64,000 bases of DNA from Chondrosia reniformis (taxonomy: Eukaryota > Porifera > Demospongiae > Chondrillida > Chondrillidae): the NCBI GenBank assembly GCA_947172415.1, contig OX359194.1:6764401-6828400 (forward strand). The letters are read 5' to 3'. A program made the translations under genes and the position numbers. The notes below the pieces were generated by a model. That model had not been told where the DNA came from and ran no database searches. It saw only the letters and a list, made by a program, of their open reading frames with translations. How positions within the stretch are numbered: the first letter of the stretch is position 1; each line of letters opens with the position of its first letter. Positions 1,011-59,634 of this stretch are shown one piece after another.

Positions 1011-4000
1011 ATGCACTCCTCTCGAGTAGCTCCCATATCCACAGACGAAATTAGTTCTGTAGGTTGGCAGAATCGCGAGGTCGCTGTCATTCAAGGTGGA
1101 ATAACCGTATATTCCGAAACAGCGGAATTATCTCATTGCATTGAGTGGCTTAAAGCTGCGTTTTGTAAAGTCGTAAGGAATGAAGGCAAAGTTACTTTGA
1201 AAGACTTTAAGCAAGTAGCAAAGGATATCGTAAGTCTGAAACCTTTGATAATATAACAAGAAAGTGACTTGGTAGTTAAAGTTAATGATTGTTACGTCTC
1301 CAATCTGTTTATTAATTGCAAATTGTTAAATTGAATTGAGCATAATCATTGCAATCACATTTCTAAACGCTATTTCCCTTAGTCATTTGCAGTTAATGTC
1401 TTTAAGCTCTTTGATTCTGATCACAATAAATCTGTAAGTCTTCAAGAACTGGTTGGAGGGTTAAGCAAGTTGACCAAGTGAGCATTATGAAGCATTAGTT
1501 TAGATAGTATCGTATAGTATAGTTTCCTGGTCCATAATTATATGTATGTTTTGTCTTTTATGAATTAATTTGAATATTAGATAATTGTGTAATAATTAGA
1601 TATGTCTTAAATATGGAATAAACAACATTCATTATAATGTCATAGATTGAATTGGCCACTGAAAGTATGTTAAATGTTATATAGCCTATATATAAGTCCT
1701 GGAATTATTGATGTAAACAAGATTGTCTGAGGTCTGGAGGTTATGATGTGGTTGGAATGGAATTTTGTGTTCCAATCTCCAGCAATGAATTCTGATGGCC
1801 AAGAAATATGTGCAACTTTAATACGTGACTGCAGTACATATTAAGTACCAGACTAGCTGAACACGTGTTACCTGGCCTCTGTAGGCATCCTAAACCAAAG
1901 AAACTTCTCAAGTATTTTGAGTCAACATTTGCTGCTGTATCAGGAGAAGATCACCTTCTTCAATTGGACGAGTTTCAAGAGGCACTTACCAAGAGTCTGG
2001 TTGGTGGACTGTCAGCTGACTTGTTGACTGTTGAACTTTGATTTTCATTTCGTTTACAGTTTGTGGAGAATTTATACAGGTTGATAGACCACACCAATTC
2101 TGGTAAAATATCCCTCACTGAAGTTATAGAATCTTTTGAAAGATTGACTATGTAAGTTTAAATTGTCTGAGTATCTCAGGTGGATTATATAGGATATATT
2201 GCAATCAATTTGTTTTTGAAGGATGGGGAGGGACACAAAGTGGCTTGCTTGGTTGGAGCAGCAGTTCACACTAGTTGCTGGAGATGACAGGCAAATAGAC
2301 AGAGAGGAGTTTAGGAGAGCACTCAGAGTGAAACAGGTGGGCGAACTTGCATTTTGTTTCCGCTGAGACCCTTCTTACACTCTTCATTGTTCCTGTCCCT
2401 CTCTCCCTCCTTGCAGTCATTCTTTGCTGATAGGTTCTTCCAGTTATTTGATCAAGATGGCAATGGCACAATTAGCTTAAAGGAGTTAATGGATGGACTG
2501 TGTGTATTAACCAATGGCTCTGATGTGGACAAACTGAAGTTCTTATTCCAAGTGTATGATGTTGATGGTATGTATGTTTGCACCTATTGAACTGTCATAA
2601 TTGTCTATCATGTTCAAAACCTAATTTATACACTATTTTGTATCCCTTTAATGTATGCAACTGTAAAAGGTGTGTTTTGAATTGGCTGATTTATTTCTGC
2701 AGCATCATTGCTCAAATCTTTAATTAAATTTTACATTAAACATAATAATGAAACTCAGCAGTATAACATTTTATATAAGTAATTAATCAAACCAGTAATT
2801 AATTGTTGGTACCCAATTCCACCCCGGTATAGGTAATGGAGTGATTGATTTTGACGAGCTTAGAACTGTACTGAAGTCTTGCATGTCTGAAAGTGCTCTG
2901 GTATTTAGTGAAGATCACTTGGATGATTTAACTTCTGCACTCTTCGATGATGCAGACACAGATGGGAATGGATCAATCAGCTTTGAAGAGCTGCAAGCGG
3001 AGCTGGACAAGCACCCAGGAGTTGTCGAGAACTTAACCATTAGGTCAGCCTCAGTGTCATGTGATGGTCATGTGATAGTCATATGAGAACTAGGAATTCC
3101 CATACTCAGGAATTATAACACGTATACTAGTCAAATGAAAGCAAATTCTTTAATTTATAGACATTTCAATAATCATACAATTACCATCTTCAGTGCAATA
3201 TGTCATGTGATGGTCATGTGATGGTCATGTATCACATACTGAATTTATTGTTTACAGTGCAGCAAACTGGCTTCAGCCCCCAAAGCCTTCACAAAAGAGA
3301 ACATTAGCCAGCTTCATTCCAAAGTGGTGTACATGGAAGTACCTTAGAAACAACATCAGATCATTAGTCTATGTGTTTCTCTTTTTCTTCATTAACATTG
3401 CTTTGTTTCTGGTTGGAGCAATTCTCTATCGAGAGAGTGGAGTTGCTGTTGCCATAGCAAGGGGGTGTGGCCAATGTCTCAATTTCAATCCTGTGTTGGT
3501 TATTATATTAATGATGCGTAGAGGATTGACACTCCTCAGATCCACCAGATTTGCAAACTTTCTTCCTCTGGACCAGCACATCGAGCTCCACAAGCTGACT
3601 GGATACACAATTGTCTTCTTTGCCACCCTACACACAATAGCACATCTAATCAATTTTGGTAAGCATTTCTAAAAGTTAGTTCCTCTTAACTTCTCTTTGT
3701 GATTGATAAGATATTTTGTACAAAGAAACACTCACGCTATTGTAGTTTAAGCTCTATCTATTGCCAATAATAATAGAAACAGCTATCAAACTTGTAACAA
3801 CTACAAGTATGAGAATTAAGCCATAAAAATCTAAAAATTATTTATGACAACATTTTGTGTGCTTGGAACATATACGTATGTATGTTACTAAACTAGGCCT
3901 CTGTAAAGTGGTCTGCCCCTAGGGGGAGGGGAGGGGATACCAAATTTTGCAGCTTCAGTCTCACTTGTAACTGTTACATGTTTGTTATATATGGCTATTA

Positions 4001-7000
4001 TTAGCAATAGAACAGGATCTTCATCACATGAAATACATGTGACATTTAACCCATGTACACCTGTACTCCAATCTATTAGCATTATCAAAGCATGTCATTT
4101 TCAGGGCACTGCGTACTTAGCATATCACTTTCTAACTGTGTTCCTTAAAGGTTTAAAGGAATTTACTGGAGTCAATGCATATAATTACACAACAGAGTAC
4201 AAGTTTGTGTTTTCTTGCGACAAACAAAGTAAGAAAACGAACAGAGGTACACAAAAACTTTGACCTTTGACTACTAATGTCTTTCTTCTCCAGCTGATAC
4301 CAACCGAACAGATGGAGGCTTGCCTTATCCGTTGTGGCAGTATTTTTTTCTGCTGGGAACTGACATTGGGTGGGTATGTGGCTCAGCGGGACTGACAGGA
4401 CTGCTGCTTCTCTTAATACTGTACATAATGACAATCTCTTCTCTGCCTTGTGTTAGAAGAAGGGGACACTTTGAGGTGATTCAATATGATGCCCAATCTA
4501 GTATGACATTATCTACTAGTTCAATGTAACTATTATGTTATCTCCTTTGATGACAATGCATGGTGTAGTCCCCTGTCATGTATGTGTTTACTGTTAAGTA
4601 AATGATGTCGGTACACCTCTAAAACTGGAAAAAATTTTAAGCTAAGCTAATACGTATGCATACTTTTTTTCCTTAATTAGGCGAATTTGACTATACTTTA
4701 GTTTTTAGTTTGATTACATGGACTGCTAAATATTTATGTCACATTCTCTTATGCTGTCCATGCTGTCCAGTTATTCTACTGGACCCACATGCTGTTTGTT
4801 GTCTGGTACGTGTTGCTGATCCTGCACGGCCCTAACTTTGGTTACTGGTTTGTCCTCCCTGGCCTTGTGTACATCCTTGAACGCGTACTGAGATCAAAGA
4901 TTGTCAAATACTGTCAGCATGGCAGGTTTTACCTGACAGCAAGCTCTCTTCTTGCATCCAAAGTCACTCACCTAGTCATCACAAAACCAGGCAGTTTTCA
5001 CTTTCAACCGGGAGACTATGTTTACCTACAGATTCCAGAGATAGCAAAATATGAATGGCACCCTTTTACCATAAGCTCCGCCCCAGAACAAAATGGCTAC
5101 TTCTGGCTACATATTAGAAGTGTTGGTACATGGACAAATAAACTTTATTACTTTATTGAAGAAAGGAATAAGAAAAAGAAAAGGAGCGTTATCAAGCTTC
5201 AGATTCCAAAGGACCACTCGAGATTTCAGGAGACACAAGAACTAGAGCAAGCCGCCCAAGCCTTAGCCAATGATGAAGGAGATGTGGTTCCCATGGCAAC
5301 ATCAGATGTACACCCTCTTGCACCTCAACATGGTTACCATGACTACAACAATGATAATGCCACCTATCATACACAAAATTTTTCCCACATGATATCATCA
5401 CCAACAATAATTGATGTGACTAGAGAAGAGGAAGAACCTGGAATTAGGGTAAGGTGTGACCAGAAGTCTGCATGTAGGATTCCCGTTTTTGTTGCATACC
5501 AGTCTGTACATGTCTTGTGTGCCTGTCCTCGTACAGGTCAACATAGATGGTCCTTATGGAACCCCAAGTGCCCACATCTTCCAAGCAGAGCATGCAGTGC
5601 TGATTGGTGCTGGTATAGGAGTCACACCATTCGCATCAATACTACAGAGTATAATGTTTAAGTGAGCCCCAACAAGTCTCAGCCATTAAGTAGCCTTCCA
5701 TGTATAATGTACAGTACATAGCCAAGGACTCACAAAAGATCAAGAAGAACCCAGGGTCACTGATGAAGGGGGGGAATTCCCAGAAAAGAGCTGTTTGGCT
5801 CAGTGGAGAAAAGAGAAGTAGAAGGAGAAAACTCTTGTATCCTCATCCAAAGATCTCACTAGGTTTAGTTCCCTCTCATGCATTAAGTTTAGTTCACTAT
5901 AGACCTTTTTCTAAAGTAAATGTAGCATGACTATTGGCATATCAGGACTTAATTATCGGGAAGCTCAATTTATCTAATCTAATATGTAATCATCCTATAA
6001 ACCCTTTTGGATATGTCATTGCCTACATCCTTGCAGATACAAAGCTGCTCAACAAATGTGTCCAAAGTGTAACTACAGTTGGGCCAAAGACATTAACACA
6101 TCAGGGATGAGATTGAGAAAGGTGTGATGCACTATATTGCTTATTGCCTTGTACACACCCCCTTGCTTGTTGCCCTGCCCATTTTATAGGTTGACTTCTT
6201 TTGGATCAACAGAGATCAGAGATCATTTGAATGGTTTATGACTTTGCTGAGTCAGCTTGAGATTGAACAGCGGGATCATGGAGGATTTGATTGCTTCCTA
6301 GAGATGCACATGTACATGACCTCTGCACTCAGTAAAACTGACATGAAAGCAATTGGACTGCAAATGGCACTGGATCTCATTCACAAGAAAGAGAACAGAG
6401 ATCTTATTACTGGTTTAAAGACTAGAACACAAGCTGGGAGACCCAACTGGGACAAGGTGAGCACTTGACTCAGATTTTCAATTTGGATTAGATTAATTAA
6501 TTACACTGTATAATGAGTTCCTTTTTAAAAAAAATCAATCTGGTTGTGTACAAGTTTAGAATTCATTAACCTTTCACTTATGCATTACAATGTGGTTCAA
6601 CCAGTCTTGTTTAGGCAAATTCTCTTTGCTGATCAACAAAACTTAAACTTCTTTTAACTTTTATACTAGATCAGCACTAGGATGAGGTTAAAAGAGTAAC
6701 ATCTATTCTTAAATTTTCCCTATTCTTGTAATCCTCACATTACAGCAATTTTTCCTTCATTTCCACTAAAAACTGAAAAAGTATATATTTTGTTTGCTAC
6801 ACTTACAATATTTTGGCTGTAACAATTTCAGCTGCTTGCTATACCCCTGTATTACCTTTGGTATTGAGAAGTAGACTCTCTGATTTATATTGATTTGATA
6901 TTTTTTGAAAGGTATTTGATAAGCTAAGCCAAGAAAGAAAGGGAAAGGTGACTGTCTTCTTCTGTGGGTCTCCTGCCATCAGCCATGTCCTCAAATCAAA

Positions 7001-10294: not shown

Positions 10295-12253
10295 ATGTTT
10301 TCAAAGGGCGTATTTCTTATCTCTATACTTTACCTTATTCATAATTGTTACATCGGTGGTACGGTTTCGTACGTATTGAACTGCAATCCCAACATCGCGG
10401 ATACTCTTTGTGAACCCATGCTAGCTACAGCCGCAAGCCAACCAAGACATCCAGGAGTATGCTATAACCAAAGCTGTCTCTTACCTGACGAGTTCGCTTT
10501 AAAAATTAGAATTCGAATACAGTACAGACCGAAAAGAATTCAAAAGGATGCAACGGATATGTGGATTCGAGTCCGTGGACCTGGTTTCTCCTGGAGTACG
10601 CTGTTGGAAACAAGAGCGACTGGATCCATTGGTGTATGGACAAGGGAAATAAAAAATGTGCTACGTTCAATCTGTAACAAGTCCGACTGCCAACCGCGAC
10701 AGTGGAATTACGAAATTCGAGTGTCCAAAGACGAGAATGTAGTAGATGGAGACATGATTGGAGCCAGTTTCTTCTATCATTTACCAATCAGTAGCTCTAA
10801 AAATTATCTTCCGTCAGATGTAGTTAAACTTCTTCCCTGGTTCCATGGCTCCAGGGTGGCCTTAAGGAAATACACACTTAAGGTGCCTGCGCAATTGTTG
10901 ACAGATGTAAGTAACACTACTGAAAAGGCTACATTCTCACTACAAGTGATATACCCTCCAAGCTATGAAGACAACACGAGTATCCAATATGCACTCACAC
11001 TTTTAATTGGAATACCAAATATACATCTACTTGCTTTGAGTCTAGAGCATTCATTCATTCGTGAAAGATCACTAAAAGAAATGATTGTGGTAGTTCTGGA
11101 TCATCCAAATGAGCGGAATTGCTCCATAATGCCCTACACCATGATTGCATCAGAATGTAAGGCCGGGTTGTGTGGCACTAATTGTCAGACATGCCAAAAT
11201 CCCAAAAGAAACAAGTCTTGTACAGCAGACCAATTCAAAGAAGAGCAGGCAAAATGTAGTCGGCAATACCTGTGTGGAGGAAAAGCTAACAGTTTTATTG
11301 ATTTTATTGAAAACCATGTGCTACCATATCTAAAAGTGCTACTGTCCAATCGTATTGATACACATCACACTATTATTGGTCACCAGTACGGGGCTGTGTT
11401 TGCAAGTTATCTTGGCATAAAGAAGCCTGAATTATTCTCTCATATAGGTTCTCTTACGCCTTTGATGGTAGATTCAACTCTGACAGAAACGTTTCTAAAT
11501 ACAATTCAGAAGAACAGTGAAGACTTTGGTACAAGATTATTATATGCAGCTCAAAGTTATTATTTTGATATTGGATTGAAGAGTTCCTATCAATTGCCCA
11601 TCTTAGAAAGTATTAAAAGTATCAAAATAGTGTCTTCAGCACTTCAAAAGGAATTTGGTGTAAGGAAAGAGAGAATACACTTCAAAAAGCATCATGAATT
11701 GCCTTTCATCTCACCACCTGACACAGCTGAACTCAGCCTCATAAGTCGTGTTCTGCTTACCCTTAAGGTGTTTCACTCAACAGAGAGTGGATTGGTGAAG
11801 GAGAGACTTCTGTCACCTTTACAAATTAAAAAGTCTCCATCACAAGCAGAGATACACTCCTACTTTGAAAGAACTGCATCTCAAACTCATGAGGACACAA
11901 ATGAAGAACCTATGTCAGAAGCCTCCAGTAGTCACATGTTTGCAGAAAAAGAGAAAATAAGATCCTCAATGCTGTATCCCCAGAGTACAGAGAAGGAATG
12001 CTTGAAGAAACACATTACTATTGCCATATTCCTGGCCAGTATTGCTGCAGCTGCTACTCTATCAGTTCTTCTAACTATAGTTTGTCACTGCAGCATGGCA
12101 TACCTCTCTTTGGGAAGGGAAAAGAGCAACACTAACGATGACGAGGATTTGGATGGCGAGGATTTGGATGGCGAGGATTTGGATGGCGATGATGGCGATG
12201 ATGCTGATGATGCAGATAATGTAGAGTCCCAAAGCGATAACGAGTCCATGTAA
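10295..12253 (+). CDS. Type I membrane protein with esterase-type alpha/beta-hydrolase domain lacking the nucleophile serine
   Basis: Intronless, 652 residues. It has a hydrophobic N-terminus (MFSKGVFLISILYLI) fitting a signal peptide, an N-terminal domain with paired cysteines (to ~residue 210), and a putative-esterase-like domain: CGGKANSFIDFIENHVLPY, then HTIIGHQYGAVFASYLGIKK, where active relatives have GHSxGG or GSSYGG. Gln (~residue 364) sits at the nucleophile position and Ala replaces the final Gly. A candidate acid (YFDIG) and His (HHELPF) remain. A helix at ~575-598 spans the membrane, followed by an acidic tail with EDLDG/GEDLDG repeats (12141-12190). The signal peptide starts at ATG 10295. 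An adhesion, binding or receptor role, as in neuroligin-like pseudo-esterases, is inference; the exact family is not identified. Confidence 0.75.
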   Translation: MFSKGVFLISILYLIHNCYIGGTVSYVLNCNPNIADTLCEPMLATAASQPRHPGVCYNQSCLLPDEFALKIRIRIQYRPKRIQKDATDMWIRVRGPGFSWSTLLETRATGSIGVWTREIKNVLRSICNKSDCQPRQWNYEIRVSKDENVVDGDMIGASFFYHLPISSSKNYLPSDVVKLLPWFHGSRVALRKYTLKVPAQLLTDVSNTTEKATFSLQVIYPPSYEDNTSIQYALTLLIGIPNIHLLALSLEHSFIRERSLKEMIVVVLDHPNERNCSIMPYTMIASECKAGLCGTNCQTCQNPKRNKSCTADQFKEEQAKCSRQYLCGGKANSFIDFIENHVLPYLKVLLSNRIDTHHTIIGHQYGAVFASYLGIKKPELFSHIGSLTPLMVDSTLTETFLNTIQKNSEDFGTRLLYAAQSYYFDIGLKSSYQLPILESIKSIKIVSSALQKEFGVRKERIHFKKHHELPFISPPDTAELSLISRVLLTLKVFHSTESGLVKERLLSPLQIKKSPSQAEIHSYFERTASQTHEDTNEEPMSEASSSHMFAEKEKIRSSMLYPQSTEKECLKKHITIAIFLASIAAAATLSVLLTIVCHCSMAYLSLGREKSNTNDDEDLDGEDLDGEDLDGDDGDDADDADNVESQSDNESM

Positions 12254-18908: not shown

Positions 18909-21900
18909 TTAATATTGATACTGCTGTGTTGCCCTGGGAAAGCCACCAGAATGGTGTGAATGTGGGTGGTTTAGACTTTGACCAGAGGGCGGGCCTGGAG
19001 GGGCACTCCCACTCAAGACATCATATATACCTGCAGGCTTATTAATGGCTGCTCCCATGTGATGAGATGGAGTGGAATAGTGGTCCTCCTGGATTGGAGC
19101 ATTCTGCTTTTCCTGCAGTTCTTCCATCATTCGGTCCAAGTACATGTCTCGTGCAGTACTGGTGCCTTTGAGTTGGGATGCTGATATCATATTCATATAG
19201 TTGTCATCTTGGTAAGATTTTGGTATGTTGTATTGCTCTCCTAACCTACTACCAGTATTGGGATGTGATCTTGGGTGATCATAGGAAGAATCTGTGGGAT
19301 AATTTCTTGGAGTGTCATACATGTCGGAAGCTACAGGCCCTCCTCCTCGTGGAGCGTCATATGTGTCGGAAGCTACAGGCCCTCCTCCTCGTGGAGTGTC
19401 ATATGTGTCAGAAGCTACAGGCCTTCCTCCTCGTGGAGCGTCATATGTGTCAGAAGCTACAGGCCTTCCTCCTCGTGGAGCGTCATATGTATCAGAAGCT
19501 ACAGGCCTTCCTCCTCGTGGAGCGTCATATGTGTCAGAAGCTACAGGCCTTCCTCCTCGTGGAGTGTCATATGTGTCAGAAGCTACAGGCCTTCCTCCTC
19601 GTGGAGTGTCATATGTATCAGAAGCTACAGGCATCCATCCTCGTGGAGTGTCATATGTGTCAGAAGCTATAGGCATCCCTCCTCGTGGAGTGTCATATGT
19701 GTCAGAAGCTATAGGCATCCCTCCTCGTGGAGTGTCATATGTGTCAGAAGCTACAGGCATATTACCCTGTGGACTGTCATAGGTTGCTGCTTGAAAATCC
19801 AGTGCTCTATTGACATTGCTCTGATTTACTCCTCGTGTGTGGTGGGTGGGTGACCCTGACGGAACCCTATTCTCAAGTACCCTTGCCAGCTGATCTATTG
19901 GATTAGGTGTTCCAGCTGACTTGGGGTGGTTGTAGGTGTCATCAGGTGGATGAACTGATCTAGGAACATTGTATGTATCATTAGCTAAGCCAGTGTGCAT
20001 CTGACTAGCTGAAATACCTTGAAATTCAAAGCCAGTTGTTTGAGGGACAACTGATGTGCTGTTATAGTTGGGTAAGGTGGACCCTCTCGGTGCATCGTAA
20101 GTAGCGTCCATCTGAGGGGGACATCTAGATGGATGACCAAGTGGTGCAGAAAGGTGGGGTTTAGGATGGTCATAGCAAACTTCTTGGATAGCATCATGGC
20201 CTGTTATGGGGACATATCCAGGTCTGTCTGCAAAATTCTGAATATCATTTTGTGAAGTGCTTCGTTTCTTTGGTGCTACTGCTGGTGGTTTTGTAGTTTT
20301 GGCATGATGGATGAAAGGTTCACTTCCTGATCGGCTGGTCTTGACAACAGGAAGTGGCTGCTGTGTAGAGTTGACATATTCGTGACAATCACTCTCACTT
20401 TGCCTACGCTCATCACTACCCATCTGGGCCATTGGTAAAAAAGGCACTGGAGCAGGAACATGCTGAGGTGATGCATAATGTCTCAGCGTTTCCTTGATAG
20501 TTGGTGAAGTGACATTCAATCCACGATGATGCTCTTCTGAAAATGGCACTGGTTGATGAATATGACCTGTCCTAGAAGATTCAGTAGTACGGGTGTTTAC
20601 ATTTTCATTTTCATCATCCACTTTAATTCCAAAACCAAATGTATTTCCATGGTTACCAACTTTGGTATCAGAACTGAAATTAGTTTCCCTAGTATTGCTC
20701 ATTGGACCAATATTCCCTGAAGATGATGCAATGTTCAAATTTTCTTCCTTGAGCGTATCAGCACTAGTTGGTTGATGCATTCCATTCTCACTAACTGAAC
20801 CACTACAAGCAAAAAACAGGAAATCTTTGTTGAATAATTTTAAAACTAAATTTATACTAGTTCAATGTTAACACAAATTTGTTGCCCTTTCAGTTTACAC
20901 TGTATCTAACATCAGTTTCAATGGTACAGTTTGCAATAACTGTCCCTTCCTAGAGCACTTGTGAACTTGTGTGTAGCCTGCTTTAGTATTATATGGGAAT
21001 ACGTGCGTATATATACGGCTATATTCATTGTATTTTACAGTGAAACCTCCATAAACCAAACACCCTTGGGAACAACTATACATTCTCTTGGCCATACTAG
21101 TACATTTAACAATTTTGACAGGGTGCCATTTTCTCCAATTTGATTTGTATATCTACAAATCATGAAAGTACTTAGTTTGGTACTTAGTATGATATTAGAG
21201 CTACTAAAGTGGTCTTCAGGACATAAAGGGTTAACTACAGTACTATTGTGAACTTGAACTGAGATTATGTTACCCATACACAAGTAAAAGAGCATAAACA
21301 ACACTTGCTTTCTTTTTTGAAGACTTTATTTTACTGGGTCAGCATTCCTTTACAAATGGTGTAGGTGTTACAATTATGACAGCGCCTACCTCTTTCTCTT
21401 GCAGTGGCCTCTTTTACAGCAAATGCAGCATACCAACAGCAACACTATGAAGAGTAGCAACAGAATTACACCAACAATGCCCCCAACCACTGGCCACAGG
21501 TAGAGAGGAAGCTCTGTAGTTGCAGAGAAAAGGAAGTAATTAGCAGCTACATCCTGTAACCATATTACATTAATGATAAATTTAGGTCACAATATGTAGC
21601 CATTATTTGCTGTTTCAGAAAACTTACTGGGTTTGTTAGATAGTACAAAAAGCCATTCTGGGAGCTTAAAAAATCTATGCATTTATTACAGATTTTTAAG
21701 GTGACAATCCGTAATACATTGAATATGTATAGGTGGCCATGTTTTTGTACCATCCGTACTTAGGAGTACTGCTGTACTCTCTAATACTACTTAGATTATG
21801 TATGTGTATCCTACTGAAGTATGTTCACTTTCACTTGACAACTATTGATGTAATTCCTATATAGTAGACGTTATTACCTAGCAACATAAAAATGAATGGT

Positions 21901-24754
21901 TGTATTGCTTAATGCACAAAACATTCAACTCTACAGAGCTCCCAGTCTAGTCACTAGCCTGTACGTACATCTCATGACAAAGTAGGAGCTAGGACTAGGC
22001 TAGAGATGTGTACAATGTAACCAACTGTAACAGACCATAAATATTACATTTCCTTTGAGGCCACTTCAAAGCACACTAGGTAGAGGAAATAGTGTGAAGG
22101 ATATAGTTCACACAATGTAGGTATACTTGACCTAAGGTAAGAGGAGCCTGTCCTTTACTTGAAATTCCAAGAAAACTACATGCAAAGGTGCTAATGTTAC
22201 AGTAGGAAAATTAAGGCCCATCAATAAAGAGATGGCCTTATAGCTTTGCTCCCAATGATACAATGTATACTCATTCTACATATACTTAATAAGCAGTGCT
22301 CTGTAGATAGATAGTGGTAACCTCCTGCATAGGAAAGGAGCTGCATAGACTGATTGATTGAAAATTGTGTTGTTACATTCAAATAAAATTACAGAATTCA
22401 CACATGATTTAGTGATTATGTCACATTATGTACAAATAGACATTTAGTCTAGTATTTTGTACATCACATTGCTTACATATGTGTATGTGTCAGTGTAGTG
22501 TGTCCCTTTGCATAACCATAAAATTACTGTATGCAATACATTTTCAGCAATTACAAATAAAAAATGCATAACAGTAGACAATTCCCATGACAATTGTCAA
22601 CTTGTGAGCCCCAATTATGTAGCCAACAGAGTGCCTTAGTCACCATGGCAACCAGAAGGCTAAAGGATTAGTTTAGTAAACTTACCTTTTACCCAAAACT
22701 TTCTTCATCTTCATACACAAACAAGTCTACAATGTGTCGGATTACAAGCTACAAGAAACTCTGTTATAAAAATCATAATTTTTGTAATTACACCGTAGTT
22801 TCAAGGCAGCCTGTGTCTGAATTACAGATACACATTGTTGGCAAGCTTATATACACCCTCTTGGGCCCACAAGTGACAAAATGGTTACTACTTTACAAAT
22901 CTGTAAATCAGTGTCCTTTAAGCATTCCATGCATCTTCTCTTAAAGGAAGAATGCTTATTGTATGCCACTCTGCGCTTGTAAAGGGTATGTAGTAAGTGC
23001 ATGGATGTTGAATTGATCACAGATTTTAGTCCTAACAAGACACCACATTCCAGTTTGTGATTCTCAGTGGAGCTTACTTTGACATCGTTGCCTCAATAAA
23101 AGCTAAATGTCCTTTAATTAGAGTATATCTATTTTCATATTAAATCTACACATAATTGATGTTATGGTTGGGTGTGCAGAACAGTGTCCATTAAGACAGA
23201 AGTCACTAGACTGTACCTCTGAGGGTTTCTATTTGACGTACGTATGTACCTGCTGTAGACACATCACACCTATGTGAACCAGCTTCATGTCCTTTCAACC
23301 TCAAAATGGCACTCAGGTTAATACACATACACTACAATACACTTATGTCAGCTTTTTTATGATTAAAGGTCACACCTCCTTACTAGTGACAAGCCAGTGA
23401 CACACCTCCCTACTAGTGACAAGTGACACACCTCCTTAGTGGTGACAAGTGACATACCTCCTTAGTGGTGACAAGTGACATACGTACCTCCTTAGTAGTG
23501 ACAAGTGACATACCTCCTTAGTGGTGACAAGTGACACACCTTCACCTCAAAATTGACAAGTGACAGCTTGTAAGCTTGTAAAGACAAACAAGGCCTTTGC
23601 ATTACGTAGCCATGCCATTTTTAAAAAGTACCATAGCTGTTGATTATGAAAACACACATATTCTGTTTTAGTTTGCTATTATATTATTATTAGAATATAG
23701 ATTCAAAATAAAATATTTTGATAATTTTAACATTAATACTAAAGGATCATATAGTGGTACATCTTAAACAAACATTCATCTGCACAAAAGTACAGCAACA
23801 AGACAATATACAGTAATTTTATTAGCTAATCTGTGTGTAAGAAGTTCAATGACAACGGCTGAAAGTAGTTAATTGTAGTTCTGTATGAACAACAGCATCT
23901 TAATTCTTTGGAAAACATCACTTTCAGAAAGAATATATAGTATATCGAGGATAATCCTGTTAATTAGTAAACAGGATAGGAAACCTTTCGTGTGGCCTAG
24001 CTGTGGTGAGCACTCAATGAATAGTCACAGCTCGATCTTGAAACACATGACATCTACTATATCCACACTTCTGTTCTCGCATTTGTCCCTCGAATGATTA
24101 GTTCTACCAACCAGCTGCTAAACAATTTTACCTTGTACCAACAGTGGTAAGAGAAGCGGCTTTGGAATTATACGATAGGTTAAGCAGATAGCTCGCCTAT
24201 CAATCCAAAGAAATGGTTCGAGATAAAATAAAGTCGGTCTTGACCCATTTCTATTACCCGTTAAAACTAATCTTTTTTTAACTAGCTGATCCATTCATTA
24301 AAACAACAGTCAACTTCTAATTGACTTTCTCGACCAAGTATACTGACGCGAGGCCTCCTGCTAGGGCCTAAGACGGCTTCTGAACACAGTTCAGTGGCAT
24401 ACAGAGCCCAGTGCTACTAAGACGTTCTTATACCACACAAGATATAGGGTGCGCTTCACAGACTAGGGGTTTTGGCTGTAGCGAGTGAAAGCTCAGCTTA
24501 CCTGTAGCTGGAGGAGTACTTGTCGCGTTCGTGTCGTTCATCCCGTACGATAGGCTGGACGTTGCTGAATATCTTGGAGTAGTGTTTAAGATGGGATAAC
24601 CAGAGGCGGTGTGTAGTAAATGATAGTTAGTGTTACTATAAGCAGTGGATGGCGAAGGACTAAGGATTCCGATTATCGCAGTGCTGTGGATTTCCGCTGT
24701 TGCACTTGTATATTGAAACTTAGGCGTATTCATTGCTCTAAAAGTCGTGCTCAT
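18909..24754 (-). CDS. Single-pass membrane docking protein with YDxP-repeat cytoplasmic tail
   Basis: Three exons: 24754-24502, 21513-21390 and 20802-18909; the phases close to 756 residues. Exon 1 encodes a Ser/Thr-rich, sequon-bearing ectodomain (~84 aa) without a clear signal peptide. Exon 2 encodes the membrane helix (LWPVVGGIVGVILLLLFIVL) followed by Cys and basic residues (CKRGHCKRKR). Exon 3 is a ~630-residue disordered tail with about 19 YxxP motifs: YDHP, YDAP, YNVP, YNHP, YDSP, YNIP, YSTP and an 11-unit 14-residue array ending YD[TA]PRGG. It also has an SH3-type motif (PPAVAPKKR). Phosphorylated YDxP is a preferred ligand of Crk-type SH2 domains, as in p130Cas. The predicted role is a tyrosine-kinase substrate linking the membrane to Crk-like adaptors. 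No ortholog is recognised. A further upstream exon supplying a signal peptide is possible. Confidence 0.7.
19312..19773 (-). repeat. Coding minisatellite, 11 x 42 bp, in the YDxP tail
   Basis: Eleven 42-bp units each encode G[GNW][MRG]P[VI]ASD[TM]YD[TA]PR. Variation is confined to a few codons and the YD[TA]P core is invariant, so the array is kept in frame and conserved at the tyrosine motif. Confidence 0.95.
21695..21790. repeat. Terminal fragment of the CCATCCCTACTTA-type element (copy D)
   Basis: Shares TACATTGAAT, GGCCATGTTTT, CCATCC[CG]TACTTA and a following AGTACT..GTACTCT with the end of the element at 37930-38000. It is probably an old, diverged copy in the YDxP gene intron. Confidence 0.5.
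22686..22726 (-). other. Possible stop-containing cassette exon in the YDxP gene
   Basis: A 41-nt segment on the reverse strand is bounded by TTGTAG| and |GTAAGT. Entered in the phase left by exon 1 it adds DLFVYEDEESFG and then a stop, before the membrane helix. If used, it would make a short ectodomain-only product or a nonsense-mediated-decay target. Based on splice sites only. Confidence 0.25.
23366..23545. repeat. ~28-bp tandem repeat (CACCTCCTTAGTGGTGACAA)
   Basis: Six to seven imperfect copies of a unit around ACCTCCTTAGTGGTGACAA-GTGACA lie in the large intron of the YDxP gene. Noncoding. Confidence 0.8.
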
Positions 24755-24967
24755 TGCCTTGCAAATAAAACAACTAAATAAATGCTGTATCGCATCTATG
24801 TAACGACTCCAGAAACTGCCTTTATAAGGGACTAGACATTGCTGCCATATATTGAAACTTAACAACATTAAATGCCTATTATATAAAAGTATAATACAGT
24901 AAATACATAGCACAATATTCAGTTACACTTTGTATGTTTAGTGAAATTAAAAAGTAAAAGTTGTTTG

Positions 24968-27900
24968 TTACGGTTCTTTGTTTATGATAGAAATAAGTCC
25001 TGATACCTATGTGTGTAAACATGAGGAAAACATGACTTAGATACAATAGGTAACATATTATACATGTAATTGGTACTATTCTGTCAATTAGCTTTGCAAA
25101 CACAATGTATTGAAGCAGGCTTACAGGATCTGCTGATTGTGTAACATTCCTCATCTGATATACTGACACCTTACCACCTGTATCGCCTACTAAGAGTACC
25201 TTGAGAGAGTAATGACAGGAGAGGTGGAGGAAGTGGAAGGGATATGTAGGTCGTGTGGTGTGGTGAGGTGAGGTGAGGTGAGGTGAGATGAAGGGAGAGA
25301 GGGAAGGAAGTGAGGTGAGGTGGTGGAGGCAAAGCAAGTGGAAGTGAGAATGTGATGAGATGAGATAAAAACAATTACTATTACGTATGTACTTGTGCAG
25401 TTGTGCTAAACAACAGGCTACAGTGTCCTTGCCCACTGGATGTCTTGTGGACAATATATGGATCCAATCTACAGTGAATATACATATATTACAATGTACC
25501 ACTGTATTGCATGCTTATGATGAAGTGGGCATGTCTCACATGTTGTGGGTGAGGTCCCACACCTCCACCCTGCTGTCACTGACGGTAGCAAACATGGCAG
25601 GATTCCATGGACACCAGTGAATATCAAACAAAGATTTCTACAAAGTACAGTCAAAACAATATCATCTCCTCACAATATAGACATCAACTGAAAACACTGT
25701 AAGAGTACCGTATAATGTACGTATGTACAGCAATAGGAATACAGTACACTAATAATAATAGTAACCATCATTAATTACACAGCCTATTTATTATTGAGAC
25801 ATATGTATACGTATCTCCAGTTCTTTACTTACAGTTGTACTATCCTGAGGAGTTCTAAATGTGACACTCACTTGTAATGTCTATGCTACCATTACTAGAT
25901 TTACCAGCTGTACCTTTGATGATGTGAATGTCATAAGGGGCTTGCTGTGATCCTGGTTCCAGAGCCTCACACTCCAGTCTGTACTGCAGCTGACAAAGAG
26001 GTGAGGGAGGGACGGACACCACCTGATCCTGTACACTGAGCCCTACATACAAACATGACTGCAGTGATGAGACTAGATAGGAAACACCAAAGGAAAGCAA
26101 GAGTACTTGTATACATTAGCACACATGTATGTACCCATTGTGGGCTACCTTGACTGGACAGATATCATACAGAATCTGACAGGTAACACACATTGATGAG
26201 TTCACAGTTGGGCCACAGTGAACTGTTACAGTTGGGCCACATTGAACTGTTACAGTTGGGCCACATTGAACTGTTACAGTTGGGCCACAGTGAACTGTTA
26301 CAGTTGGGCCACAGTGAACTGTTACAGTTGGGCCACAGTGAACTGTTACAGTTGGGCCACATTGAACTGTTACAGTTGGGCCACAGTGAACTGTTACAGT
26401 TGGGCCACATTGAACTGTTACAGTTGGGCCACAGTGAACTGTCACAGTTGGGCCACATTGAACTGTCACAGTTGGGCCACATTGAACTGTCACAGTTGGG
26501 CCACAGTGAACTGTCACAGTTGGGCCACATTGAACTGTTACAGTTGGGCCACATTGAACTGTTACAGTTGCTTATCTATAGATTAGGCTTCTTCCAGGTT
26601 TAAATAGTCCATTACAGATACAACTAATTGGAGCATTTAATTGGTGCAGAGTATATAAATTGAATGAAAAACATGTTTGTTATAACAGCCTGCCTATGAT
26701 GAATAGGTTTGGTGTCCACTGTAACATACTGTATGGCCCTCATATGTCTCCAGGAACTGTTCATTATAGGAGCAGGAGCACTTGTGGATCAGTCCCTCCT
26801 CCGTGCCCACTAGATAGCTACATAGGTGGAGATACAGAAAACAGTAATAAACACTAATAATTAGCCCACATAATGGGTTCATTTAACTTTAGCAGCTGTC
26901 CTCCTAGAAGCTCACACAAACACCATTCATTCTTTTCCTTTTGTGAGTGAACCATCAGACCACCTTGGTTGGTCATACACACACATACATACAGTACATA
27001 CATACAAGTATGTATGTTCACAATGCAATGTTGTCGTTTCAGAGCACAAATCTCAATATTAATCTGATGGCTTCTAATGTAGTATCATATTCACTTTCTG
27101 TGTGACACAGATTTTTGTGTACAGAAAATTACATATACACACATATATGTATATAGTGATACTGAAAATAGATACGTTTACTGGTGGTGGGTCTTTCATA
27201 GACTAGATAAATATGTACTCACAAATTGCTAATTGCTATAGCCCCCCTCCACATTAGAGTACATCAGACTATAATCATATTGCATTACACTTCGATTACA
27301 GCTATGTATGTATTGTAATGTACATTGCCTCAAATTGATTATGTGATACTTGCAATATTCATAAAATGATTTAAACATGTTTATTTACATACATAGCTAT
27401 AAGAGCTTCCTATCTGAGTGTTTTGACAACATTCTAACAAAAACATTAGGATATCACAATAACTTGTCATCTAAACTATTTCTCTCTGATCAGTGAGTGT
27501 TGTTTCTCATTCTAATGCAGTACATACATACGTACGTATAAAGGCACATTCTCTGAAAATGCACAAGTGTTGGATGTGTGCATTAATAACAGATTTCTAT
27601 ATGAGGCATGCTTCCTAATGAGGTATACCATGATCTAACCTTATCTTGAACAGAATCACAACAAGGCTGAGTTCATTGGTCACAGTCTGTTATATGTGAT
27701 GTGTATGTACATATGTACAAAGGTATACATATGTATGTATAAATGTTTGTATGAGTGTTTGTAGTAGGAAATTGATGGTGAACTGTACATCAAAGGCTTC
27801 ACAGCTAGCTGGTAACTTCACTATCACATTCAGCAATCATTAGTGCCTCAAAGATGATCTGTTAGGAGACCTTGTGTAAGAGGACACTTCACACCACACT

Positions 27901-34951: not shown

Positions 34952-35041
34952 CTTTGACTTTTTTAGCTGGTGCGCGTAATTTAGAATACGTTGTCATGGA
35001 CACAATTAATTAGACTTTTTATTTGGGAATTTCTCCAACAA
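34952..35041. promoter_or_regulatory. Divergent promoter DNAI4 / fucosyltransferase with X-box-like site
   Basis: The two start codons are separated by 90 bp. GTTGTCATGGACAC (34990-35003) matches the X-box consensus RYYNYYATRRNRAC at 13 of 14 positions, 39 bp upstream of the DNAI4 ATG, fitting RFX control of a ciliary gene. The fucosyltransferase would share the same open chromatin. Confidence 0.5.
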
Positions 35042-36532
35042 ATGGTCATGAAATGCTCGAAAACGTTAATTGTCGTGACAGCCAGCGCCACCTGTTTCTT
35101 ATCTATCCTGTTTGCTGGATACATCTTTGATGAAGCAATAGATGAAGAAATAATTCTTACAGAATACTTGGAAGATGATAACTATGTATTTCAAAATCCT
35201 CTCCCTGACGGACAAGAGATGTTTGGTATGAAGTTTGCAAAGGAGGAACCAGACAACGGCGATGTACGTCGTAGGAAGAAGGTCTTTCTTCCGAAAGAAG
35301 AAAATAATAGCCTTCCTATGTTGATTTGGTGGACGCCATTTACTCCATTTGCCCGTTTAATTAGAAAGTGTCCGAAAGGAAGCTGTTTGTTCACGCAAAG
35401 TCGAACAGAGTTCGATGATCCGTTGACCGAAGGTATGGTGTGGTATGCCACTGATCTGGATTGGATGGATCTCCCCCTCCCCCGCAATCCTCAGCACCTC
35501 TGGATCATCCTTCAGGAGGAGTCACCCAAGAACAACTGGTTGCTGGCTTTTCAGGACGGAATTAGTCTATTTAACTACACCTCCACTCCCAGCAGGTACT
35601 CCAACTATCCACTGACAACCCAGTACCTGCCCGGGATGGACTATCTGATGTCCCGCAAGCCAGTCCCCACTCGGTATAAGAGTAAAGATGGACTTGCTGC
35701 CATCATGTACCTCCAGTCTGACTGCAATCCTCCGTCTGACCGTGACAGTTATGTACAGGAGTTGATGAAGTACATCAAAGTGGATTCATATGGCAGCTGT
35801 CTGCACAACAAGGACCTTCCGAAGAGGCTGGTTGATCCGATGACTATGGACGATAATGACCTACTGGATATTCAGGCTAAATATAAGTTCTCTTTAGCTT
35901 TTGAGAATGCCATTTGCCATGATTATATTACAGAGAAACTCTGGCGTCCTTTCAGTGTCGGGTCTGTTCCTATCATCCGAGGATCACCAACTGTAAAGGA
36001 CTGGTTACCGCATGACAAGAGTGCCATTGTAGTGGATGATTTTGCTAGCCCTAAAGAGCTTGCCAAATTCATTAAAGAATTAGATGAAGATGATGCAAAG
36101 TACGAAGAGTACCTCTCATGGAAGTATAGTGGAGTAACTAACCAGAGACTTTTGAAGCACTTGGATGAGAGGGAGTGGGGGGATGAGAAGCACATCAGCT
36201 CGGTCGACACATTTGAGTGCGCCATCTGTGACTTTGTACACACACGTAAGGAGATGGAGAGGAAAGGAGAGGTCTTTATCAGCGTGGCTAGCACAGAGCA
36301 TTATCAGTGTGATCTGGTAAAGCCAGCTATGGGAAGCCTGGAAGATAGAGAACAGATTTTAAAACATGCAGTATTCCATGACAACCATGATTTGGTGTAT
36401 TGGATGCAGCATGACAGCTGTGCGGAGAAGAAGGCTCGTGTCATAAGAGAACTTCTTGAGAGGAATGCTTCCAAAGAAGAATATCCCAAAAGGGCAGGTA
36501 AAAACAAGTTTATGGATTGTACGTGGACCTGA
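35042..36532 (+). CDS. GT10 alpha-1,3-fucosyltransferase, FUT10/FUT11 (POFUT3/4) type
   Basis: Intronless, 496 residues, the usual length for FUT10/11. A short cytoplasmic N-terminus and signal-anchor (~residues 7-27) predict a type II ER/Golgi protein. The GT10 donor-binding core is clear: YKFSLAFENAICHDYITEKLWRP, then VGSVPIIRGSPTVKDWLPHDKSAIVVDDF. The N-terminal acceptor half includes WWTPFTPF, CLFTQSR and a FNYTSTPSRYSNYPL segment. A Cys-rich tail (FECAICDFVH..YQCDL..DSC) matches the FUT10/11 subfamily rather than Lewis-type FUTs. In mammals these enzymes O-fucosylate EMI domains. It probably represents the pre-duplication FUT10/11 gene, so no single symbol is given. An upstream TTG-initiated extension was not used; ATG 35042 precedes the anchor. 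It lacks introns although its neighbours are intron-rich, suggesting retroposition origin or intron loss. Confidence 0.9.
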   Translation: MVMKCSKTLIVVTASATCFLSILFAGYIFDEAIDEEIILTEYLEDDNYVFQNPLPDGQEMFGMKFAKEEPDNGDVRRRKKVFLPKEENNSLPMLIWWTPFTPFARLIRKCPKGSCLFTQSRTEFDDPLTEGMVWYATDLDWMDLPLPRNPQHLWIILQEESPKNNWLLAFQDGISLFNYTSTPSRYSNYPLTTQYLPGMDYLMSRKPVPTRYKSKDGLAAIMYLQSDCNPPSDRDSYVQELMKYIKVDSYGSCLHNKDLPKRLVDPMTMDDNDLLDIQAKYKFSLAFENAICHDYITEKLWRPFSVGSVPIIRGSPTVKDWLPHDKSAIVVDDFASPKELAKFIKELDEDDAKYEEYLSWKYSGVTNQRLLKHLDEREWGDEKHISSVDTFECAICDFVHTRKEMERKGEVFISVASTEHYQCDLVKPAMGSLEDREQILKHAVFHDNHDLVYWMQHDSCAEKKARVIRELLERNASKEEYPKRAGKNKFMDCTWT

Positions 36533-58626: not shown

Positions 58627-59496
58627 TTAGACCCATTTCTCGCTCTGTGAGGTGACATGTGATGAGGTCATGTTGGCTGTCACATCAGTGGACACCTCAG
58701 AGGTGAGAGGTGTCCCCGTCCATTGCTCCCTGACAATGTCCCTTACCCTCCTGGGGTCCATTCGGGCCCACGTTGGGGACTCCATGATGGAGGTGGTCTG
58801 CATATAGCTGCTCTCCCCGCGCATGTGCGTTGTGTTGCTCCCCTGAGTAGCCGCATGAGAGGCAGAGTAGGTTTCGCTGTCAGTCAGTGGCACATTCGGC
58901 TTGCTAGTTTTGACGTCTGCCACTCTTCCCCTCGGCATCCTCAGAGAGAAGGAGCGAGGATTTCCAGGAATGAAGAGGTCAGAGCTGGAACATCTTCGCT
59001 CCCTTTTCTGGTTCCCCTTGGCCAAGCTTCCCAGAGTGCACACAGTGGTTGGGTTGGCAGTGACGCTGATGCAATTGGATGAATGTCTTCTTTCCATTCT
59101 GCCTTGATAGATTGGTGGATCTGCGGAAATGCTGGAAACTGTGAGACGTTCGTCCGCTTGCCCCAGGGTGGGGGCGCTGGCGTACACGTGTTGCGCGCTG
59201 TGCGGCCAGTTAGCCAGTTCAGTTTCCGCCCGTGCCTTCAGCAAACCGATGGCTCTGATTCGTCTGTTTGTTATTTCCAACTGATGGGCATATCTTCTCT
59301 TTCTTCTTATCTGCCTTCGTCGGAAAACTATGCAAGCAACCACTAGAGAGATTATAATTGCAGCAATAACTACTATAATGGGGAGGATGGTTTCTGGGCC
59401 GTCAAACTCATCTATCTCTTTAGCTGGTTGATCCCTAGGAGAATAGGTAGGAGGAGGGAAACTGGTAGGGAGCGTCACGTTTGTTGAATTGCTCAT
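58627..59496 (-). CDS. Intronless single-pass membrane protein, unrecognised
   Basis: 289 residues from ATG 59496. A short N-terminus with two sequons (NSTNVT) and a PPPTYSP motif precedes one membrane helix (~36-58, ILPIIVVIAAIIISLVVACI) and a strongly basic stop-transfer (FRRRQIRRKRR), so an N-out/C-in single-pass protein without a cleavable signal is predicted. The tail holds basophilic kinase-type sites (RRHSSNC, RRCSSSD) and Ser/Thr-rich segments, ending SQSEKWV. The architecture (short Ser/Thr/Pro ectodomain, helix, long tail) parallels the YDxP receptor but without its repeats. No family is recognised. It is head-to-head with SPEF2, 188 bp between start codons. Confidence 0.65.
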   Translation of the reverse strand: MSNSTNVTLPTSFPPPTYSPRDQPAKEIDEFDGPETILPIIVVIAAIIISLVVACIVFRRRQIRRKRRYAHQLEITNRRIRAIGLLKARAETELANWPHSAQHVYASAPTLGQADERLTVSSISADPPIYQGRMERRHSSNCISVTANPTTVCTLGSLAKGNQKRERRCSSSDLFIPGNPRSFSLRMPRGRVADVKTSKPNVPLTDSETYSASHAATQGSNTTHMRGESSYMQTTSIMESPTWARMDPRRVRDIVREQWTGTPLTSEVSTDVTANMTSSHVTSQSEKWV

Positions 59497-59634
59497 GTGA
59501 AATTCTAGTTCTTTAATATTCTAGAGTTTCCACTTCCCCCTATAGTTGCTGCACCACGCTAAACATTTGCAGCTTTCCAGTGACTGCAGTTGAGGAATTA
59601 ATCATATTCATACGTAGATGACGACATTAACGTT

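Follow-up and report, generated by a model that had tools for sequence, protein, structure and literature searches.

The window analysed here, a stretch of 64,000 nucleotides from the genome of the sponge Chondrosia reniformis, contains on its minus strand a predicted three-exon gene that we read, with a probability of about 0.6, as encoding a single-pass plasma-membrane adaptor with its N-terminus outside and its C-terminus inside the cell, which would work in a manner similar to LAT or PAG and would carry a substrate tail similar to that of Cas. In this explanation, the gene anatomy, the enrichment of tyrosine motifs in the tail, and the presence of partner genes in the same genome constitute the observed part. 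The design is of a known kind, unusually rich in repeats here, and what appears to be new is the combination of an adaptor built in the manner of LAT/PAG and a Cas-like tail that a minisatellite has expanded; no such combination was found among the works listed on sponge YxxP proteins (where PMC5043372 was the only on-topic work found), on minisatellites in connection with phosphotyrosine or SH2 domains, or on transmembrane adaptors of sponges and choanoflagellates. A preceding sequence-only reading of this DNA had seen a novelty in a transmembrane version of a Cas-type motif array, made by minisatellite expansion; this argument falls because transmembrane YxxP proteins have already been published in choanoflagellates (PMC5043372) and, with DCBLD1 and DCBLD2, in vertebrates (PMC6029619).

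Gene structure and predicted membrane topology

The gene model predicts a protein of 756 aa, with 24754 and 18909 as the outermost coding bases, and includes the following exons and membrane-associated features:

24502 to 24754, minus strand: exon 1, encoding the S/T-rich N-terminus (residues 1-84 and one further base)
21390 to 21513, minus strand: exon 2, encoding the transmembrane segment, CCICC next to the membrane and the basic KRGHCKRK, with phases that fit both neighbouring exons
18909 to 20802, minus strand: exon 3, tail residues 126-756 and the stop codon, with 20 YxxP, one YMNM and one YVNS
21431 to 21490, minus strand: predicted single membrane helix (approximately residues 93-112), from hydropathy
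21416 to 21430, minus strand: CCICC, candidate palmitoylation motif of the CxxC type (residues 113-117), from sequence

As a prediction from sequence, this three-exon model is well supported. GT or AG is present at each of the four splice sites, and the intron phases (1, then 2) are consistent across both introns. With regard to codon usage, exon 1 scores higher than 95% of the intron segments and the non-array part of exon 3 has its own frame as the best of six, while the score of exon 2 (124 bases) lies under the intron-segment mean and does not favour its frame. The non-array tail is stop-free over 464 codons, as compared to a longest run of 186 in 500 base shuffles.

The proposal of one membrane helix followed by a long tail rich in YDxP motifs was borne out by the 756-aa model, in which one strongly hydrophobic segment reaches a score of 3.62 over a 19-residue window, as compared to a best score of 0.76 elsewhere in the protein. 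A Pfam scan of the 756 aa yielded four matches, all of which were below the cut-off and located over this membrane segment. Basic residues mark the cytosolic flank of a membrane helix (the positive-inside rule) and, because such residues flank the predicted helix on the tail side, the sequence suggests that the tail lies on the cytosolic side of the membrane. The N-terminal 85 residues contain 29 S/T, no Cys, and three N-glycosylation sequons (N57, N73, and N76); by eye, no obvious signal peptide was found at the N-terminus.

YxxP motifs and the repeat array

A total of 21 YxxP motifs, including 15 YDxP and 18 Y[DN]xP, were identified in the predicted protein. As 20 of the 21 are in the tail and one (Y89) is at the outer edge of the helix, the previous estimate of about 19 YxxP in the tail was of the right order and slightly low. 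The motif-bearing features of the tail are:

19284 to 19781, minus strand: array of repeats with the unit YDTPRGGxPVASDT (residues 467-632), containing 12 motifs of the form Y-D-[TAS]-P, one every 14 aa
19920 to 20174, minus strand: four non-array motifs in unlike contexts, Y336 DHPK, Y361 DAPR, Y403 NVPR and Y416 NHPK
19218 to 19283, minus strand: Y633 DHPR and Y650 NIPK, downstream of the array
19188 to 19199, minus strand: Y661 MNM, from sequence

The array, which TRF placed at 19308-19758 (period of 42 bp, 10.7 copies, 95% matches), is in frame and coding, and its 12 motifs follow each other at an exact spacing of 14 aa from residue 467 to residue 621. Its period is exact and its copies are non-identical; the sequence-only reading had counted 11 motifs in it. 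The unit types succeed one another in an ordered series (position 8 is M in three units, R in five, and G in two), as slippage or unequal exchange would be expected to leave them. Eight tail motifs are found outside the regular series (Y235, Y336, Y361, Y403, Y416, Y633, Y650, and Y701), and the YMNM at Y661 is presumably of the PI3K/Grb2-type SH2 motif class. The tail beyond the helix is rich in P, S, G, and T. PxxP in the protein is limited to PFLP and an overlapping pair in PPGPP; the SH3-type proline motif that had been proposed has a likely candidate in KPPAVAPKK, even if its spacing is PxxxP and not PxxP.

Over the whole tail, 18 Y[DN]xP were observed as compared to a mean of 0.45 in 20,000 shuffles. 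When residues 467-633 were removed, 7 YxxP were left as compared to 1.6 expected (P 0.00035; 20,000 shuffles), 5 Y[DN]xP as compared to 0.195 expected, and 5 Y[DN]xP[RK] as compared to 0.016 expected, an approximately 300-fold excess; each of the latter two counts was reached by 0 of the 20,000 shuffles. This excess of Y[DN]xP[RK] outside the array, where the motif is retained between differing spacers, is the principal evidence for selection on the motif itself. The array alone proves nothing with regard to function, because pN (0.075) is close to pS (0.10) between its copies (10 units) and purifying selection is thus not shown; likewise, the invariant Y, D, and P in the array are not significant alone, as the amino acid varies at 5 of the 14 codons (approximately 0.23 by hand arithmetic).

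In an ad hoc set of 53 sequences (332 open frames of at least 100 aa, duplicates included), two or more Y[DN]xP were found only in this gene and in the Cas gene of the same genome. Three further loci in this set (L028, L032/L040, and L043) have open frames with at least 5 YxxP and zero Y[DN]xP. L043 (C4:8850000-8856500), which starts with an open frame with 6 YxxP, contains two tandem sets of SH3-SH2-SH3 segments approximately 1.5 kb apart, suggesting two neighbouring Grb2-like genes.

The window has 47 TRF rows of tandem repeats, with overlapping periods counted. A second in-frame coding minisatellite (12137-12193; 15 bp, 3.8 copies), which encodes EDLDG repeats, ends an esterase-like open frame of 684 codons (PF00756), in which a hydrophobic stretch can be seen by eye close to the C-terminus.

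Partner genes and search for relatives in the same genome

A Pfam scan of the 756 aa at E values up to 1 found neither an SH3 domain nor the C-terminal FAT-like CAS_C domain, and the only CAS_C match in the genome (E 1.6e-8) belongs to a true Cas gene on a separate chromosome (C12). For these two reasons, the YDxP protein is not considered a member of the Cas family. The Cas gene has an open frame of 642 aa with an SH3 match, for which the best matches among solved structures are BCAR1/CRK-associated substrate; four of the gene's seven YxxP are Y[DN]xP, and its motifs YDVPRR, YDRPRA, YDYPKS, and YDVPRS share with the tail gene the consensus Y-D-x-P-[RK].

Genes for other components of phosphotyrosine signalling were also found. 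A Crk gene on C7 has an SH2 domain in two exons (joined by eye), with E values of 8e-28 to solved CRK and 3e-27 to CRKL; an SH3 exon comes after them. On C13, a single exon with SH3 and SH2 shows a match to ABL1 (3e-41), and a gene on C9 that starts with MGCASSK shows the Src-type order of SH3, SH2, and kinase (the kinase by reading). A further gene on C5 encodes three SH3 followed by one SH2, which we take to be the domain order of Nck; its best solved matches by total score are GRB2, and as NCK1/2 domains were also matched, we refer to it as Nck-like. Overall, the genome contains at least 82 SH2 and at least 95 SH3 segments. With Crk, Nck-like, Abl, and Src-type genes present, writers and readers of the motifs are likely to exist, and the products of these genes could, in principle, phosphorylate or bind the YDxP motifs. 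On C6, two matches to SH2 exons share the same score and are located approximately 12.6 kb apart (6841715-6841870 and 6854356-6854511), the nearer one approximately 13 kb past the end of the window; they may stem from a recent local duplication.

A search of the C. reniformis genome with the whole protein gave 40 matches (59 of the 107 candidates were scored); three are exons of the gene itself, one represents the array read on the opposite strand, and the remaining 36 all fall inside query residues 446-632. No paralogue of the non-repeat part was thus found among the 59 candidates scored. Five of these loci (L037-L041, on C14, C9, C10, C13, and C1) lack YDxP in all frames of at least 250 aa and were set aside as low-complexity resemblance; another array on C14, with a period of 35 bp and containing TATGATACACCA, was rejected as unrelated, as the length of its unit cannot be divided by three and no YDTP array is present in its listed open frames. 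With the tail as query, contigs of prokaryote genomes, which might hold stray sponge DNA, gave 11 pattern matches, none of which was confirmed as a relative.

Comparison with known YxxP and adaptor proteins

The predicted protein is best read as resembling several known scaffolds in how it would work, without proven membership of any named family. Five choanoflagellate transmembrane proteins with cytosolic YxxP have been described, including PTSG_05573, PTSG_12435, and PTSG_12436 of S. rosetta, with 10, 9, and 5 YxxP, respectively, as well as A9VAL3 and A9V449 of M. brevicollis (PMC5043372). The SH2 domain of choanoflagellate crka1 binds pYDVP peptides of PTSG_05573 (pYDVP-R[SN] sites), and no SH3 or other Cas-like domain is reported for the three S. 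rosetta proteins (PMC5043372). The sponge protein is similar to this group in its predicted membrane helix, in having several YxxP, for which a cytosolic location is inferred here, and in lacking an SH3 or Cas-like domain. Unlike the sponge protein, the choanoflagellate proteins carry extracellular domains (DUF5011, C2, EGF, TSP1, or others), and three of the five have C-terminal SH2-like domains (PMC5043372), while Pfam found none in the sponge protein. Compared by description, the sponge protein further differs in its 20 tail motifs, its 42-bp array, and its animal host, which also has Cas.

DCBLD1 and DCBLD2 have 8 and 7 intracellular YxxP, respectively, and bind the CRKL SH2 domain after phosphorylation by Fyn or Abl; binding of the Abl SH2 domain to DCBLD2 has been suggested to need YxxP motifs as well (PMC6029619). 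The sponge protein shares with them a single helix and several YxxP, placed on the cytosolic side by the basic flank. By contrast, the CUB, LCCL, and FV/FVIII domains of the DCBLD1/2 ectodomain have no Pfam match in the 756-aa sponge model, and the sponge tail has a repeat array, which the accessible portion of PMC6029619 does not mention for DCBLD1/2.

With regard to overall architecture, the sponge gene model, with its predicted 5' end and topology, would resemble LAT and PAG: it has a putative outer part of 85 residues, a single helix, CCICC as a candidate palmitoylation site, and a long tail. Tyrosine motifs of LAT/PAG-type adaptors are mostly not YDxP. Pfam includes LAT and PAG models, and no match of the 756 aa to a family of this type was found at E values up to 1. 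The lymphocyte transmembrane adaptors LAT, PAG/Cbp, LIME, and NTAL/LAB have a short extracellular part, one helix, a juxtamembrane CxxC that is palmitoylated, and a long tail with up to 10 tyrosine motifs (PMC2803307). Human BCAR1/p130Cas, finally, has 15 YxxP in its substrate domain (PMC5043372), and the 20 tail motifs of the sponge protein form a similar domain of repeated YxxP; however, BCAR1/p130Cas is cytosolic and has SH3, Ser-rich, and FAT-like domains, while the sponge protein lacks these and has a predicted helix.

Proposed mechanism and alternative explanations

In the adaptor reading, the helix and perhaps a palmitoylated CCICC would hold the tail at the membrane beside a Src-type kinase, and Src and/or Abl, judging from their known substrates, would phosphorylate many of the 20 YxxP tyrosines. 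The SH2 domain of Crk, which is conserved in the sponge, would then bind pYDxP, with YMNM as a minor site of the PI3K/Grb2 type. In other systems, Crk SH3 partners signal to Rap/Rac and the cytoskeleton, and the sponge Crk may pass its signal on in the same manner. Multivalency would set avidity and clustering, while valency would depend on the 42-bp minisatellite, through slippage or unequal exchange; the copy number of the 42-bp units may plausibly differ between individuals.

At the 5' end, an acceptor-like TTTGCAAG stops three bases 5' of the ATG, the open frame extends upstream of the ATG as far as 24922, and a donor-like GTAAGC is found at 25124 in an exon of the upstream neighbour, in compatible phase (by eye); because of these features, there may be an unseen 5' exon before the ATG, or a longer or different 5' part. 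The exons described here could then represent the stalk, helix, and tail of a conventional type I receptor, with upstream exons for a signal peptide and for an ectodomain that folds and binds ligand, as in DCBLD1/2 or PTSG_05573, and ectodomains are indeed present in DCBLD2 (PMC6029619) and in those choanoflagellate proteins for which domains are given (PMC5043372). However, the ATG is only approximately 370 bp away from the nearest exon described for the apparent same-strand neighbouring gene, a TATA-like stretch is present near 24885 (by eye), and nine open frames of at least 45 aa in intron 1 have codon-usage scores of at most 0.007, with smaller exons escaping such a screen; we thus consider a receptor of this type unlikely. 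Still more doubtful, in our assessment, is a purely neutral expansion, in which an ordinary in-frame minisatellite would have grown in a fast-evolving disordered tail and the number of YDxP would carry no functional meaning. While the repeat-rich window with its second coding repeat and the similar pN and pS between array copies are in line with such an expansion, it does not account for the approximately 300-fold excess of non-array Y[DN]xP[RK] in unlike contexts.

A separate question concerns which SH2 domain reads the tail. With at least 82 SH2 segments to choose from, an Nck-like gene present, and the suggested dependence of Abl SH2 binding to DCBLD2 on YxxP (PMC6029619), the main reader could be Abl, the Nck-like protein, or an SH2 protein special to sponges; pYxxP is, however, a demonstrated ligand of Crk-type SH2 domains (PMC5043372), and solved CRK and CRKL are close matches of the sponge Crk SH2, such that a reader other than Crk appears the less likely choice, at perhaps somewhat better odds than those of the type I receptor.

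Possible evolutionary meaning

According to a published proposal, transmembrane YxxP proteins provided the membrane link of Crk in pre-metazoans, and animals later co-opted Cas; the same work lists a Cas for the sponge Amphimedon, with 6 YxxP (PMC5043372). Our data allow for a far-reaching and, taken as a whole, improbable extension of this proposal, in which the pre-metazoan transmembrane YxxP scaffolds described in PMC5043372 would have persisted into animals, a sponge would keep a membrane-anchored YDxP scaffold alongside its true Cas, and the number of Crk docking sites, and hence signalling strength, could differ between individuals by way of an in-frame minisatellite. If both kinds of scaffold are indeed encoded in one sponge genome, the change from membrane YxxP proteins to Cas proposed in PMC5043372 becomes directly testable. 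If copy number varies in the population, the array would also provide a natural series for studying how signalling is tuned by the number of sites for phosphotyrosine docking.

Other genes in the window

The minus-strand exons of the upstream neighbour (25100-26100) read as WD40-like by eye, and we take them to resemble the WD40 repeats of axonemal dynein intermediate chain; the single frame of this gene that was scanned (24882-25514) gave no Pfam match. On the minus strand at 58627-59520, an apparent single-pass membrane protein has a basic stretch after its helix (by eye) and no Pfam match. Exons similar to those of NADPH oxidase/ferric reductase genes are located at 3211-3672 and 4714-5661 (PF01794 below and PF08022 above the cut-off), and a single open frame of 515 codons at 34985-36532 encodes a fucosyltransferase (GT10, E 1.4e-40).
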